Both the position numbers and the translations under genes were made by a program. The notes under the pieces are model-generated. The model did no database searches. It saw nothing but the letters and a program-made list of their open reading frames with translations, and was not told where the DNA came from. From Gammaproteobacteria bacterium (GTDB taxonomy: Bacteria; Pseudomonadota; Gammaproteobacteria; Ga0077536), in the NCBI GenBank assembly GCA_020849475.1, contig JADLGE010000010.1, positions 62,001 through 126,000 of the forward strand: 64,000 bases of DNA. The letters run 5' to 3'. Below, piece by piece: positions 11,798-58,640 of this stretch (positions are counted from its first letter, which is position 1; each line of letters starts with the position of its first letter).

Positions 11798-12520
11798 ATG
11801 GAAAATTTCACACGCGCTTCGTCGCTGGCCGCGCTGCTCGTGCTGGGCCTGACGGGAGTAGCGGCCGAAGCCGCGCCGGTGGCCAACGGGCCGGCTCTCG
11901 CCGTGGATGGCGATGGCATCAATTCCCTGTGGGTGCGCGCCGAAGTACCACCGCACAGCATTGCCGACGCGGTGAACGTGCTCGGCAGCGGCGGCGAGCA
12001 GTTCAGCCTGGTCAGCGCCGACATCGATTTCTTCGACGCGTCCAATGGCGGTAGCGGTGTAAGCGTGGGCGTGGGCGCGCTGACCCCGGTCGACGTCGCC
12101 ACGCCGAACTTCGACAACATCTTCGCGGTGCGCTACTCAGGTTTCCTGAACGTGACGGTCAGTGGCGAATATTCCTTTCAGGCCCACACCGACGACGGCT
12201 TTGATTTGCTGCTCGGCGGTGAGCGCATCGTGTCGCTGGACAGTGATCGCGGCCCGGACAGCAGCTTCGTCACGCTCAATCTGGACGCCGGTTTCTACAG
12301 CCTTACGATGCTCGGCTGGGAACAGGGCGGGCAGTTCGTCAACGAACTGAGCTGGAAGCGCCCAGGCGATGAAACCTTCGCCGTGATCGGCACCGAAGCC
12401 GGTGGTCGCGCGCTGTTCACGGCCGCGCCGAGCGCGGTGCCGGTGCCGGCGGCCCTGCCGTTGCTGGGCTCGGCCTTGGCGGGTCTGGGCTTCGCACGTC
12501 GGCGTCGCGCGCGCGGCTGA
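11798..12520 (+). CDS. PEP-CTERM (VPLPA-type) exported protein with PA14-like domain
   Basis: The 240-residue protein has a signal peptide (residues 1 to about 26, ending AAEAAP). A beta-rich region at about 105-190, containing SGEYSFQAHTDDGFDLLLGG, looks like a PA14 carbohydrate- or surface-binding domain. The C-terminus has VPVPAALPLLGSALAGLGF followed by RRRRARG: a sorting motif, a transmembrane helix and a basic tail. Such proteins are processed by an exosortase and usually end up outside the cell or in the exopolysaccharide. No exosortase is encoded in this window. AAGGAG lies 8 nt upstream of the start. Confidence 0.85.
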   Translation: MENFTRASSLAALLVLGLTGVAAEAAPVANGPALAVDGDGINSLWVRAEVPPHSIADAVNVLGSGGEQFSLVSADIDFFDASNGGSGVSVGVGALTPVDVATPNFDNIFAVRYSGFLNVTVSGEYSFQAHTDDGFDLLLGGERIVSLDSDRGPDSSFVTLNLDAGFYSLTMLGWEQGGQFVNELSWKRPGDETFAVIGTEAGGRALFTAAPSAVPVPAALPLLGSALAGLGFARRRRARG

Positions 12521-37244: not shown

Positions 37245-37335
37245 CAGGCATGAATACGACGGGTATCAAGGCGGGCATTGAACCGCGCACACGGGAGTCG
37301 GGCACTCAGGCCTTGCCTGTCATCGACAACACACC

Positions 37336-37923
37336 ATGGATGCCGCTCGCCGCCAACTGCCCGACAACGACGCGCTCAACGCCGCCGCGCGTGAGTGGAT
37401 AGCGCGCATGGCCTGCGGTGACGAAACCGGCATGGGTCTGCTCTACGACGGCACGCTGGGCCACGTCTACGGCCTGGCGCTGCGTGTGACGCGCGATGCC
37501 GATGCCGCCGAGGACGTGGTGGCGGAAACCTATCTGCAGGTCTGGCAGCAGGCCGGCCGTTACGATGGCGAGCGCGGCACGCCGCTGGCGTGGCTGTTGA
37601 ACATCACGCGCAGCCGCGCGCTCGACCACCTGCGACGCCGCGCCAGCGCACTCGGTGTCGATAATGTCGCCGTTGCAGCAGCACTCGACGAGGCGCTGCA
37701 TGAGGACGATCCGTTGTCGCTGGTGATGGCGCTCGAACGCGAACAGGGGCTCAAGCGCGCGATTGCGGCGCTGTCACCCATCCCACAACGGCTGCTGGGC
37801 CTGGCGTTTTTCGAGGGGCTCTCGCACAGCGAGATCGCCGCGCGCACCGGTCTGCCGCTAGGCACGGTGAAATCCCATTTGCGGCGCGCGCAGGACAGCC
37901 TGCGCCACCATTACCGCGACTAG
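37336..37923 (+). CDS. ECF-type RNA polymerase sigma factor
   Basis: The 195-residue protein has sigma region 2 (AEDVVAETYLQVWQQAGRYDGERGTP is the 2.2-2.4 area) and region 4 with the HTH LSHSEIAARTGLPLGTVKSHLRRA. The short length without regions 1 and 3 defines an ECF factor. A cupin ChrR-like protein is encoded 23 nt downstream, the arrangement seen for RpoE-ChrR pairs. It probably transcribes its own operon and the divergent DUF4331 operon. Confidence 0.92.
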   Translation: MDAARRQLPDNDALNAAAREWIARMACGDETGMGLLYDGTLGHVYGLALRVTRDADAAEDVVAETYLQVWQQAGRYDGERGTPLAWLLNITRSRALDHLRRRASALGVDNVAVAAALDEALHEDDPLSLVMALEREQGLKRAIAALSPIPQRLLGLAFFEGLSHSEIAARTGLPLGTVKSHLRRAQDSLRHHYRD

Positions 37924-52435: not shown

Positions 52436-53623
52436 TCACCCGCGCGACTGTCGACGCCGCGCGAACATGCCGAGCGCCACCAGCCCCGACACCAGCGCCG
52501 GCAATCCCGGCGGCAGCGGCACCGGCGCGGGCGCTTCGCCCACCTGACCGATGAGGTCGAAGTTGAGCGCGCCCATCTGTGCGCCGATCAGGTTGCCGAC
52601 CAGTTCCGGATGCAGATCCGGATCGCACTCGTCGGGCTTCTTGCCGCTGGCGCTGCACAAGGCCAGTTGCTCGACGCTGCCGGCGAAGTCATAGAACTCG
52701 AAGCGCCGCGCTACCTGCACGTCGTTAGGGTCGAGCACGTGACCGCGCACCTTGGGTGGCTCGTTCTCGGTCAACAGTTCCCACTCGAATTCCTGCTCGG
52801 GGATCTCTATTTCATTGCCGTCCTTGTCGACGCCGAGTTTGCCCTGCGGCACCACGTCGTCACTGCCCGAACGCAGCGCGTCGAGGCGTGCCTGCATCTC
52901 ACGACCGACGTCGTTCGGATCGACCGCGTCATGCACCACGTTGCCGTCCTGGTGCGCCTTGTCGACGAACACCTTGACCCAGCGCGGCGGCACCGGGGCG
53001 CCTTCGTTCTCCTGTTCCGGCTGATCGACTTCCACCTCGACTTCGAGCGGCTGCACCTGCGGGTTGGGCTCGACGTTGCCCACCGGCAGGATGGCGTTCC
53101 ACACCGGGTTGCCGAGCTGCACCAGCGGGCCGGCGACGAAGCTGCCCGGGGCCGCGCCCTGCAGCAGCCACTGGTAGCGCACACCGGTGGGGTTGCCGAA
53201 GTAGCCCATGCCGAAATGCTCACAGCCGCTGCCGAACACGCAGGAATGGCCGTCGGTGGCGACCGGCGTGCCGGGCACAAAGGGATGCACCAGGTAATCG
53301 ACACTGCCGTCGGCGGCGTAGCCGCTGTAACGCAGGATGGTCGAGAAGCCGGTGGCTGTGACGACTTCCTCGAGGCTCGGCTGCAGGCGGCCGGGGATGG
53401 TGAACACCGCAGGGATGTTCGCGCCATAGGTCGGGATGGCGCTCTTGTGGATGCCTTCGAGTTCGATCTCGAAACCGATGTAGTCGTCGCTGGAGTTGTT
53501 GTAGACGTCGAAGTTGGACAGGGCGCCGTAGGCGGTCGGCGCGTTTACCAAGGCCGAGGCGTCGAGCCCGACAGCGGTGAGCGCCACGGCCAGCGCAAGC
53601 TGCCGAAGATGGAATGGTTGCAT
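52436..53623 (-). CDS. PEP-CTERM exported protein
   Basis: The 395-residue protein has a signal peptide (HLRQLALAVALTAVGLDASAL). The C-terminus APVPLPPGLPALVSGLVALG followed by ARRRQSRG is a sorting motif, TM helix and basic tail. The central region is long and acidic. It contains cysteine pairs near CVFGSGCEHF and a late pair near CSASGKKPDECDP. Upstream 247 nt to the divergent OsmC gene hold no other gene; no ECF motif like that of the spondin gene is seen there. Confidence 0.8.
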   Translation of the reverse strand: MQPFHLRQLALAVALTAVGLDASALVNAPTAYGALSNFDVYNNSSDDYIGFEIELEGIHKSAIPTYGANIPAVFTIPGRLQPSLEEVVTATGFSTILRYSGYAADGSVDYLVHPFVPGTPVATDGHSCVFGSGCEHFGMGYFGNPTGVRYQWLLQGAAPGSFVAGPLVQLGNPVWNAILPVGNVEPNPQVQPLEVEVEVDQPEQENEGAPVPPRWVKVFVDKAHQDGNVVHDAVDPNDVGREMQARLDALRSGSDDVVPQGKLGVDKDGNEIEIPEQEFEWELLTENEPPKVRGHVLDPNDVQVARRFEFYDFAGSVEQLALCSASGKKPDECDPDLHPELVGNLIGAQMGALNFDLIGQVGEAPAPVPLPPGLPALVSGLVALGMFARRRQSRG

Positions 53624-55606: not shown

Positions 55607-56398
55607 TCAGCCCTTGGCTCGACGAGACAAGGCGCCTAACGCGCCCACCCCGGCAAGCAGCAGAGGCAGGGCCGCCGGCACCGGTACCGGCGCGGGCAGC
55701 ACCTGGAACGAGATTCGATAGATTTCGCTATCAGCCGCCAATTGGCTGTTGAAGTTGTATCCCGCACCGGTCACAAGACCATTGAAGGCCGCCAGTTCGG
55801 CAAAATTGAAAGCCACCACCGAATTTTGATCGGCGCGCAGATCGTTGTTTCCAACAAACGCCGCAGCCGTCGGGTCGAACACTTCCGAACCGGCGTCCCA
55901 CACATCGCGCGCGCGTTGCAGAATGTGATTGGTGATCAGATGGCCAGCGCCATCAAACAATCTGAATGCCGTCGGCGCATCATTGCCGATGAAGAAATCG
56001 TTGCTCGGCACCACCATTGCTGCAAAGCTGAAAAATGGATTTACATCGGTGTCGATGGTGAAGGTCTGCTGTCCACTGCCAGCGGGCAACAGCGCTCCCG
56101 CCGGGTCTGGCAACACGGTGCCTGTAACCGCCCCCGGGTCTACGGCGGCGAACGCCGGAAACCATGCAGCACCGCTGCCCCCTTCAGCGACCGAAACAAT
56201 CGCCGCGCTCGCTGCGTCGCCGATGTTGAATGCATCGAATACACCGCTGTGAAAGCCCACGCGCAATGGTGCGAAGCTTATGCTGTCGCCCGGCGCCAGA
56301 TTCTCGACGGTGACTTTGAGTTGTACGACCGCCGCCTGGCTGGCAAGCGGTGCGCCGGCGACCACGGCCGCGGCGAACAGTGAATTGATCAAGCGCAT
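55607..56398 (-). CDS. Spondin-domain PEP-CTERM exported protein
   Basis: The start at 56398 has AGGGAG upstream and opens a signal peptide (MRLINSLFAAAVVAGAPLAS), giving 263 residues. The mature N-terminus (VTVENLAPGDSISFAPLRVG, then FNIGDAASAAIVSVAEGG) fits the bacterial spondin_N domain, often found in exported proteins with a C-terminal sorting signal. The C-terminus VPVPAALPLLLAGVGALG followed by RRAKG is the PEP-CTERM signal. A promoter motif identical in spacing to that of the ECF operon lies 75 nt upstream, implying control by that sigma factor. Confidence 0.85.
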   Translation of the reverse strand: MRLINSLFAAAVVAGAPLASQAAVVQLKVTVENLAPGDSISFAPLRVGFHSGVFDAFNIGDAASAAIVSVAEGGSGAAWFPAFAAVDPGAVTGTVLPDPAGALLPAGSGQQTFTIDTDVNPFFSFAAMVVPSNDFFIGNDAPTAFRLFDGAGHLITNHILQRARDVWDAGSEVFDPTAAAFVGNNDLRADQNSVVAFNFAELAAFNGLVTGAGYNFNSQLAADSEIYRISFQVLPAPVPVPAALPLLLAGVGALGALSRRAKG

Positions 56399-56472
56399 GA
56401 CTGACGACTCCCTGAAGTTTGATGGGCGGCGTCGCATGCTCACTCGCGATACTCAACAGACGCCGCAATCAC

Positions 56473-56499
56473 CAATACGCGGGCCGGGGGTGAATCGAT
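56473..56499 (-). promoter_or_regulatory. Predicted ECF promoter of the spondin-like gene
   Basis: On the minus strand ATCGA (56499-56495) and CGTATTG (56479-56473) are 15 nt apart. The same two words with the same spacing precede the ECF sigma gene at 57744. The 5' leader would be about 70 nt. Confidence 0.65.
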
Positions 56500-56536
56500 A
56501 CTTCGGGAAACCATTCGAGATTCGGCAGCCGGAAGC

Positions 56537-57181
56537 TCAGCGAATGCGCAGCAGCCAGGCACCCGCCAGCGCACCCACCACACCCAGCGCGAGTCCAGGC
56601 GCCAAGTGGTAGAGAAAGACGTGTGCCGGACTGTACATGCATGCCACATGCATGAGCAGCGCAGGCATGGCGCCCGCGGCCAATCCCAGCAACAAGCCGG
56701 TGCAGGCGCCATGCAGAGGCCAGCAGCCACGCGCGAGATACAAACCCCATCGCAAGCCCGGCCCACCGAGCAGCGCGGATTCGAGCATGCAGTGCGGACG
56801 TTTGCCGGCCATCGACAACGGCAGGCTCGGGTCATGTAAGCCATAGGCCATGAGGCCCAGCCACGCGGCGAGCGCCAGCAGCGGCCATCCAATGCGCCGG
56901 CGCAGCGGGCCCATGTCGGGAATGGCGAGTCGGAGTCCGGCGGCGCCCAAGCAAGTAATTGCCACCAGACCCAGAACGAATTCAGCAAGGAAACGCGGCG
57001 TGTGCGTGAGCTGCTGAACAAAGCCAGCGCGGAATGGCGCCTCCCATAGCAGGAAGGCGACGCTGAACGAGGCAGATCCGAGCAGCCACAGCGCGACACT
57101 GATGCCGCGCCCCGCGGGCCGCGCAATCGAGCGGAGATCAGCGCTGAGCGCGCTGATCAGTTCTTCGCGACCTGAATTCAT
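56537..57181 (-). CDS. NrsF-like (DUF1109) anti-sigma factor
   Basis: The ATG at 57181 overlaps the stop of the sigma factor gene (ATGA), giving 214 residues. It is an integral membrane protein with about six hydrophobic helices (LWLLGSASFSVAFLLW, LAEFVLGLVAITCLGAAG and others). A cytoplasmic N-terminus (MNSGREELISALSADLRSI) is the likely sigma-binding part. Overlap with an ECF sigma gene and the helix number fit NrsF/DUF1109. The three cysteine-bearing helices (for example HCMLESALLGG) may be sensory. Confidence 0.82.
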   Translation of the reverse strand: MNSGREELISALSADLRSIARPAGRGISVALWLLGSASFSVAFLLWEAPFRAGFVQQLTHTPRFLAEFVLGLVAITCLGAAGLRLAIPDMGPLRRRIGWPLLALAAWLGLMAYGLHDPSLPLSMAGKRPHCMLESALLGGPGLRWGLYLARGCWPLHGACTGLLLGLAAGAMPALLMHVACMYSPAHVFLYHLAPGLALGVVGALAGAWLLRIR

Positions 57182-57744
57182 ATCGCCAGCCCTTCCGCTT
57201 CCAGGATTTTGCGGACAGCCAGCAATCCGCGTCGCAGACGAGCCTTCAAGGCTGGTTCGGAAATGCCCAGCCAATGGGCCGCCTCGGCGGTAGTGCAGCC
57301 GGCATAGTGCGTGAGGGCGATGGCCTCTCGATGATCGGGCGCCAGATTCTCGAGCACCTTGACGCCGTCCAGGCGTCGTTGCAGTTCGTGCGGATCGCTG
57401 CCGTCCTCAAACAGACTGACTTCGCCGCCCCGGCGGTGATTTTTGCTCTGACGCAACACGTCGATGGCGCGGTGACGTGCGATGGTAAACATCCACGGGC
57501 GGAACGGTCGCGACGGGTTATAGGTATGACGCGCCTTGTGGATGGCCAGCAGACATTCCTGAACGCAATCTTCGAGTGCATCGATGGCGCCGAAACGCGC
57601 ACGCAGATAGGTCTCGATGGTGACCGCCAATTCGCCAAGCAATTCGCGGTAGGCCTGCTGGTCGCCACGGTGGGCGCTGGTCATCCAGGCCGCCCAGCGC
57701 TGTTCGTCCGCACTCCAACGGGTAGCTTGCGAATCGATTTGCAT
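57178..57744 (-). CDS. ECF-type RNA polymerase sigma factor (NrsF partner)
   Basis: The start at 57744 has CGGAGTCCC upstream and gives 188 residues. Region 2 is visible as DALEDCVQECLLAIHKARHTY and FRPWMFTIARHRAIDVLRQS. Region 4 holds the HTH CTTAEAAHWLGISEPALKARLRR. It is upstream of and translationally coupled to the anti-sigma gene. Its own promoter and that of the spondin-like gene share the ATCGA-N15-CGTATTG motif, so it probably autoregulates and controls the PEP-CTERM protein. Confidence 0.92.
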   Translation of the reverse strand: MQIDSQATRWSADEQRWAAWMTSAHRGDQQAYRELLGELAVTIETYLRARFGAIDALEDCVQECLLAIHKARHTYNPSRPFRPWMFTIARHRAIDVLRQSKNHRRGGEVSLFEDGSDPHELQRRLDGVKVLENLAPDHREAIALTHYAGCTTAEAAHWLGISEPALKARLRRGLLAVRKILEAEGLAI

Positions 57745-57782
57745 GGGACTCCGTTCTAAGGACTGGGGAACCGGCTCATCGA

Positions 57783-57809
57783 CAATACGGCGCCCGCGCA
57801 GATTTCGAT
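57783..57809 (-). promoter_or_regulatory. Predicted autoregulatory ECF promoter
   Basis: On the minus strand ATCGA (57809-57805) and CGTATTG (57789-57783) are 15 nt apart, exactly as upstream of the spondin-like gene. The transcript leader to the ATG at 57744 would be about 33 nt. Confidence 0.65.
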
Positions 57810-57932
57810 GCTGGCGCGCGGAAATAAAAGTGCGCGGCCGCCGGCCGAACTGTGCGGCGGCCCTGTCGGGTGGGCCACGGTGGGCAAGCGCGCTTGACGG
57901 TGGCGGGCGCGGGCGCGCTCGGTGCCACGCGG

Positions 57933-58640
57933 CTACGGACAAGTCACCGCGATACGCTCCTTGAGCGCCACCCCGCGGGGGCTGACCTTGGCGCGGTAGG
58001 CCAGTACTTCAACACCCGCCGCCAGGGCCTCGCGCAGCGTGCGGCCATAGAGCGGATCGATGGCGTCGGCCGGCCGTACTTCATCGACATCACCGCGCTG
58101 TACGCAATACACCAGCACCGCGCGCAGGCCGTCGGCTTTGAGTCGCATGAGTTCGCGCAGATGCTTGGCGCCGCGCGCGCTGACGGCGTCGGGGAACAAC
58201 GCGATGCCATCGCTGACGGCGGCCGTCACATTCTTCACTTCGACATAGCAGTCCGCGCGCGCGGGGCTTTGCAGCAAGAGATCGATGCGACTGCGTTCGA
58301 CACCAAACGGCACTTCGCCGCGCAGGTTTGCGTAGCCGGCGAGTTCAGCGAGCACGCCGTTTTCAATCGCTTCGCGAACGAGCTTGTTGGGCAGGCCGGT
58401 ATTGATGCCGACCGTGACCTTGCCGACTTCGACCATCTCCCAGGTGTGGCGATATTTGCGCGTCGGTGAATCGCTTTGTGACAACCACACACGGCTGCCT
58501 GGCGTTGCGCAGCCGAGCATGGAGCCGGTGTTGGGACAGGCCGCCGTCAGGCGCGTGCCGTCGGCGAGTTCGCAGTCGGCGAGGAACCGCTTGTAACGGC
58601 GCAGGAGCGTGGCGGCGAGCAGCGGCGCAGTGAACTTCAT
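57933..58640 (-). CDS. sfsA: SfsA-family DNA-binding/nuclease-like protein
   Basis: The 235-residue protein shows the SfsA order of motifs: FLADCELADGTRLTAACPNTGSM near the N-terminus, GINTGLPNKLVREAIENG, ERSRIDLLL, CYVEVKNVTA and FPDAVSARGAKHLREL. The D-x-E-x-K pattern resembles a restriction-nuclease-like active site. In E. coli it was named for sugar fermentation stimulation; its biochemical role is unclear. It is preceded on the other side by the PPOX-like gene. Confidence 0.95.
   Translation of the reverse strand: MKFTAPLLAATLLRRYKRFLADCELADGTRLTAACPNTGSMLGCATPGSRVWLSQSDSPTRKYRHTWEMVEVGKVTVGINTGLPNKLVREAIENGVLAELAGYANLRGEVPFGVERSRIDLLLQSPARADCYVEVKNVTAAVSDGIALFPDAVSARGAKHLRELMRLKADGLRAVLVYCVQRGDVDEVRPADAIDPLYGRTLREALAAGVEVLAYRAKVSPRGVALKERIAVTCP

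Follow-up and report, generated by a model that had tools for sequence, protein, structure and literature searches.

An ECF sigma factor with an NrsF-type anti-sigma factor predicted to control an exported spondin-domain protein from variant ECF16-register promoters

Genes and shared motif at the locus

The window (the whole stretch of gammaproteobacterial DNA that was analysed, 64,000 nucleotides) holds an ECF sigma factor gene, an NrsF-type gene and a spondin-domain gene, all on the minus strand. The genes and the two motif sites are as follows.

57783..57811, minus strand: candidate promoter motif of the sigma-NrsF operon, GCATCGAAA-N13-CGTATTG, with -35 and -10 boxes; motif 5' of the sigma gene in 7 of 7 family loci
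57178..57744, minus strand: ECF sigma factor, 188 aa; Sigma70_r2 47.9 bits and Sigma70_r4_2 31.7 bits, both above cut-off
56537..57181, minus strand: NrsF-type membrane anti-sigma factor, 214 aa, with Cys131 and Cys181; PF06532 56.4 bits, cut-off 26.8
56473..56501, minus strand: candidate promoter motif of the spondin gene, GTATCGATT-N13-CGTATTG; motif 5' of the spondin gene in 8 of 8 system loci, from two families
55607..56398, minus strand: exported spondin-domain protein, 263 aa; NF038123 103.7 bits, cut-off 40

The sigma gene starts with an ATG at 57744 and encodes the recognition helix SEPALKARLRRGL. The NrsF gene lies directly downstream, and its start overlaps the sigma stop. The spondin gene starts with an ATG at 56398, with position 55607 being the end of its stop codon, and its product has an N-terminal hydrophobic segment and a VPLPA/PEP-CTERM-like tail (residues 237-262). 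A further ECF-like sigma frame (37282-37920, plus strand, 35 bits) and two more frames with PEP-CTERM-like tails (11798-12520, plus strand, and 52436-53623, minus strand) were seen elsewhere in the window, all without the refined motif described below.

An earlier note, written from the window alone before comparison with any relative, had reported that the string ATCGA-N15-CGTATTG stands at the same spacing before both the sigma-NrsF operon and the spondin gene. The string was found exactly at 57809-57783 and 56499-56473 on the minus strand, with no third exact match in the window. The first site falls in the gap 5' of the sigma gene, where the next upstream gene is on the same strand and ends at 57933, and the second lies between the NrsF and spondin genes; the distances to the start codons are 38 nt and 74 nt, respectively.

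Two similar strings might have arisen by chance in a GC-rich window. Consistent with this, the seven window matches counted with up to 2 mismatches (five of them with 1-2) do not exceed chance expectation (mean 4.2; 14 of 100 shuffles reach 7), and the exact string occurs four times in the window's own genome (G000; 5.40 Mb, 137 contigs), at the two window sites and at two others beneath long open frames, inside likely genes. This explanation was weighed against the conservation of the motif in relatives.

Conservation and distribution of the motif

The NrsF protein of the window was present in 7 of 58 genomes searched (its own included), all within the window's family. Among 36 genomes of that family the spondin gene occurs in the same seven, and in each it adjoins the sigma and NrsF genes. 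The motif stands 5' of sigma and 5' of spondin in all seven loci, giving 14 sites with identical spacing. An eighth system was found in another family (G232), with the gene order spondin-sigma-NrsF and one motif, 5' of spondin. The 14 family sites supplied both the pattern and the score matrix and are also among the sites tested; as the pattern was written without the G232 site, that site serves as an independent test. A looser pattern, G[CT][AG]TCG[AT]3-N13-CGTA[TG], was present at identical spacing in all 15 orthologous regions (up to 250 nt each), G232 included, against 2 of 45,000 dinucleotide-keeping shuffles. Chance as the origin of the shared motif is therefore rejected by its conservation, and we give it next to no probability. 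Every motif shares the strand of its gene and lies 32-203 nt ahead of the start; for the four most similar spondin genes the distance is 74, 74, 75 and 74 nt.

The earlier note had predicted that the sigma factor regulates itself and directly controls the spondin gene, and had named loss of the motif ahead of orthologues as grounds for refutation. Both predictions withstand this check and gain comparative support from the 15 conserved sites, and spondin control also from the retention of the motif 5' of spondin in G232 despite the different gene order. As for the string itself, the sites are real but its wording was slightly too narrow, since position 5 may be A or T and the last letters vary.

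That note had also proposed scanning the genome and its relatives for the motif. Besides its conservation upstream of orthologues, the refined pattern GYRTCGWWW-N13-CGTAKYG has two matches in the own genome (5.4 Mb), namely the sigma and spondin sites of the window, and its reversed control has none there. Across the eight system genomes there were 18 matches, comprising 14 of the 15 known sites and four others; the site missed is the sigma site of G008, which has different end letters. Six genomes without the system gave two matches, one each in two genomes, and the reversed control gave three over all 14 genomes. One of the four extra matches (G015:C29:6015, L162) is a perfect motif; the gene of an exported DUF547 protein starts 147 nt further on and may be a third target of the sigma factor in that genome. 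Two others (G025:C32 and G017:C7) lie beneath long opposite-strand frames, and the last (G017:C47:111138) falls in a gap, and no listed frame begins in the 600 nt that follow it.

The DUF547 site would also fit a broad stress regulon with spondin among many targets, as would the 35 one-mismatch matches to YATCGW-N15-CGTATTG in the own genome and the known ECF16 regulons, which hold several operons in the available sections of PMC3511200 and PMC8315932. However, the pattern is matched in full at just two places in the own genome, and 26 of the 28 one-mismatch matches inspected (L036-L063, from the 35) lie beneath long GC3-rich frames, although such overlap is a weak rule for exclusion because both true sites also lie beneath frames of this kind. 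No further convincing target was seen among these 28 of 35 matches. We consider a broad regulon unlikely.

The spondin gene was then viewed independently of its regulator. A profile search of genome contigs with the spondin alignment confirmed at least 312 places, of which the best 80 were compared. Both sigma and NrsF genes were beside spondin in six of these 80: four loci of the window's family, already counted above (L064, L065, L066 and L122), one from Candidatus Litorirhabdus singularis, a cultured relative, with the gene order spondin-sigma-NrsF (L074), and one from Burkholderiales, divergent and of the canonical type (L098). Motif matches above 20 bits were confined, among the best 80 of 312, to the four family loci, which had contributed sites to the matrix; the top score elsewhere was 17.5 bits, far from spondin. 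The motif was thus not seen 5' of spondin genes lacking the sigma/NrsF pair in the best 80 of 312 loci, in keeping with the predicted spondin control, with the reservation that absence of the pair is not certain for each locus because several of the 80 are short. Betaproteobacterial spondins of about 49-65% identity had no sigma/NrsF-type regulator nearby among the same 80 loci, suggesting that the protein is widely used without this pair.

Relation to ECF16 promoters and sigma residues

The Caulobacter SigF promoter is given as GTAACC-N16-CGAA (available text of PMC3511200) and the ECF16 promoter as (T/C)GTAAC-N17-CGAA (available text of PMC8315932). The window system does not match the latter, having GYRTC...CGTA in 15 of 15 regions, but it retains the same register. 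From the G of GTAAC or GYATC to the C of the -10 box is 22 bp in all promoters compared in this section, and they therefore differ by substitution within one register. In a sigma tree the window sigma factor stands next to ECF16-like proteins, but the inner support is weak, with 3 of the 10 inner branches well supported.

The own genome encodes a second, canonical NrsF (L020, G000:C50), which scores 230 bits against 56 for the window NrsF; the two are only 25% identical. TGTAACC-N16-CGAA boxes lie 5' of the canonical sigma gene and, back to back, 5' of a cytochrome b561/molybdopterin oxidoreductase pair. The box of this sigma gene sits directly at the listed start codon, so either the start or the box needs checking. 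In a third family (G701, G853 and G988), TGTAAC-N17-CGTATT precedes both sigma and a divergent gene for a small exported protein in 3 of 3 genomes; G701 came from a set of 398 genomes, and G701, G853 and G988 from a set of 246. Small exported proteins of about 121-137 aa lie behind the sigma-NrsF pairs at L153 (near 7761, minus strand), L156 and L157 (near 7698, minus strand), each with a sigma-type promoter, and the one of these three scanned against Pfam gave no match. In L074, GTAACC-N16-CGAA lies 100 nt before the spondin start, and no such box was found ahead of the sigma gene. This was the only GTAAC-N16-18-CGAA box 5' of spondin among the best 80 of 312 loci; a second match, in L098, belongs to the divergent sigma gene there.

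Compared with SigF-NrsF of Caulobacter (PMC3511200) and BcrS-AbcS of Brucella (PMC8315932), as described in the portions of those papers at hand, the window system has the same arrangement, in which the gene for an NrsF/DUF1109 membrane anti-sigma factor follows that for an ECF sigma factor, the same two conserved cysteines in the anti-sigma factor, promoter boxes in the 22-bp register, and a small regulon of exported or envelope-related products. It differs in its boxes (GYATC and CGTA, in place of GTAAC and CGAA) and in its output, which is a spondin/PEP-CTERM-like protein, whereas the outputs described there are methionine sulfoxide reductase or metal-related genes. The system apparently descends from a known stress-response system and has altered the promoter code of that ancestor. 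The pair would be of the ECF16/SigF-NrsF kind with an altered promoter, GTAAC having probably become G(C/T)ATC and CGAA probably CGTA, with the 22-bp register kept.

Promoter and sigma sequences were compared for residues that vary together. The recognition helix reads K[AS]RLx[RK] in 8 of 8 GYATC-type sigma factors and KVxVHR in 6 of 6 of the GTAAC type, a comparison that includes G001 and takes G025 in a shifted frame. In region 2, the residue after F is T in 11 of 11 CGTA-type sigma factors and A in 3 of 3 of the CGAA type, a small sample partly of common ancestry. Differences in the -35 box thus go together with those in the recognition helix, and differences in the -10 box with the A or T of region 2. 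In the complexes of SigW and E. coli SigE, as presented in the available part of PMC6713349, K170/R171 contacts G'-31, R175/R176 and R172/R173 contact G-35, T171/S172 contacts position -34, and H174/F175 contacts the -32/-33 bases. The window-type residues were placed on these contacts through the K-x-R-x-x-R pattern, read by eye instead of from a computed alignment. On this placement, the helix residues that are kept would lie opposite the unchanged G-35 and C-31; the two that differ would lie opposite -34 and -32/-33, where the boxes differ. Causality and direction of these changes are our reading of the covariation; the tree does not establish the number of independent changes or their direction, because only 3 of its 10 inner branches are well supported.

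The motif could alternatively be a binding site for another regulator, an activator or repressor common to both genes, with the sigma factor acting elsewhere. ATCGAT-like words within the motif would fit such a site. Against this, the motif comprises two boxes whose spacing does not vary, it always shares the strand of the gene that it precedes, at 32-203 nt from the start, and its register equals that of published ECF16 promoters (in the accessible text of those reports). The motif is also present where the sigma gene is and was not seen in the other spondin loci of the best 80 of 312, and its -35 letters covary with the sigma recognition helix. We regard another regulator as highly improbable, and retain the reading of the motif as a sigma promoter.

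Under that reading, the window system may be a SigF-NrsF-like module dedicated to one exported F-spondin-fold protein and orthogonal to the canonical copy, in which the -10 box changed first (GTAAC...CGTA, with KVxVHR) and the -35 box second (GYATC...CGTA, with K[AS]RLx[RK]). The case for and against this two-step route appears evenly balanced to us. If it is true, living systems represent each stage, and direct tests could address which step came first and which residues are responsible. The register and the matching helix difference are additions beyond the earlier note, and they provide matched sigma-promoter pairs, with predicted residues, for asking how ECF factors shift promoter specificity.

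The predicted sensor, the exported protein and their regulation

All 8 aligned NrsF proteins, the canonical L020 protein among them, have the cysteines Cys131 and Cys181; Caulobacter NrsF is outside this alignment. Replacing two cysteines of the same numbers in Caulobacter NrsF releases SigF, according to the sections available of PMC3511200. Together, these observations make a thiol-reactive signal likely for the window NrsF. A crude hydropathy scan found five hydrophobic segments in this protein, compared with six transmembrane segments for the ECF16 type.

The window spondin protein falls slightly below cut-off with Pfam Spond_N (23.0 bits, cut-off 24) and with two PEP-CTERM models (TIGR03370, 25.0 of 25.35; PF07589, 19.1 of 20.7), and its profile matches by sequence are to Spondin-2 and Spondin-1. 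A structure model built from 33 sequences had a pLDDT of 88, and the sole Foldseek matches with E of 0.001 or lower were F-spondin domains, namely 3q13 and 3d34 (E about 1e-7); the title of the 3q13 entry describes a calcium-binding C2 variant. The model thus predicts an F-spondin (C2-like) fold. This fold and the sequence profile are shared with the F-spondin domains of F-spondin and mindin (3q13 and 3d34), but identity to these structures is 14-16%, and the window protein is bacterial, with a signal peptide-like start and a PEP-CTERM-like tail. It contains no cysteine and two methionines and is therefore, by composition, not a sacrificial oxidant sink. PF09721 detected an exosortase in the own genome (232 bits) and in 7 of 8 system genomes, with no PF09721 match in G008. 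Another PEP-CTERM protein has a demonstrated surface or matrix role in Aquincola flocs (PMC9850573, as far as its available text goes), and the spondin protein is probably likewise a surface or matrix protein sorted by exosortase.

Haft et al. (2006) found a sigma-54-type site 5' of 99 of 167 proteobacterial PEP-CTERM genes and considered that more regulators of such genes still awaited discovery (PMC1569441, available portion). Sigma-54 control was examined for the spondin genes without a sigma gene and rejected, as no strict -24/-12 box was found in the 77 regions examined upstream of spondin genes, a set with four members of the window's family (the window gene was covered through relatives). 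Start codons were set by rule of thumb, and 3 of the 80 loci were dropped for having no start. The single loose match was in L066, which has the sigma gene. As far as the available text of PMC1569441 and PMC9850573 shows, the window system would resemble the sigma-54/PrsK-PrsR system in providing dedicated transcriptional control of exosortase substrates in Proteobacteria, and differs in using an ECF sigma factor and a membrane anti-sigma factor. Within the open-licence literature searched, which did not include the large ECF classification papers, no paper was found that combined spondin with PEP-CTERM, PEP-CTERM with an ECF sigma factor, or NrsF with exosortase.

Taken together, we think it very probable that the ECF sigma factor regulates itself, is restrained by an NrsF-type membrane anti-sigma factor with two cysteines, and directly transcribes the gene for one exported spondin-fold, PEP-CTERM-like protein from variant ECF16-register promoters. 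By analogy with its family, the NrsF-type membrane protein would hold the sigma factor inactive until an envelope signal, probably thiol-reactive such as an oxidant or metal, inactivates NrsF. The freed sigma factor would then transcribe the sigma-NrsF operon as well as the neighbouring spondin gene, using two promoters of the type GYRTCGWWW-N13-CGTAKYG, a motif that is itself conserved. The output would be an exported F-spondin-fold protein with a PEP-CTERM-like tail, probably sorted by exosortase to the surface or matrix. The shared promoter predicts a private on/off switch for one surface protein. The parts are of known kinds; what is new is the way they are combined, together with the altered promoter code and an output predicted to be one exported protein. 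The system is a concrete candidate for another type of PEP-CTERM gene regulator, in which an ECF sigma factor would sense the envelope and serve one exported protein. It also offers a minimal circuit of two promoters that could be moved into E. coli.

No NrsF match was found on plasmids. The sigma frame is broken in two of the relatives, by a frameshift in G025 (L015) and by an in-frame stop in G008 (L017), and NrsF, spondin and the motifs are kept in both; the breaks represent either decay or assembly error. The contig of L064 (CAMCBY010000271.1) is titled as a Klebsiella pneumoniae MAG, yet it equals a contig of G001, a genome of the window's genus, and the title looks wrong.
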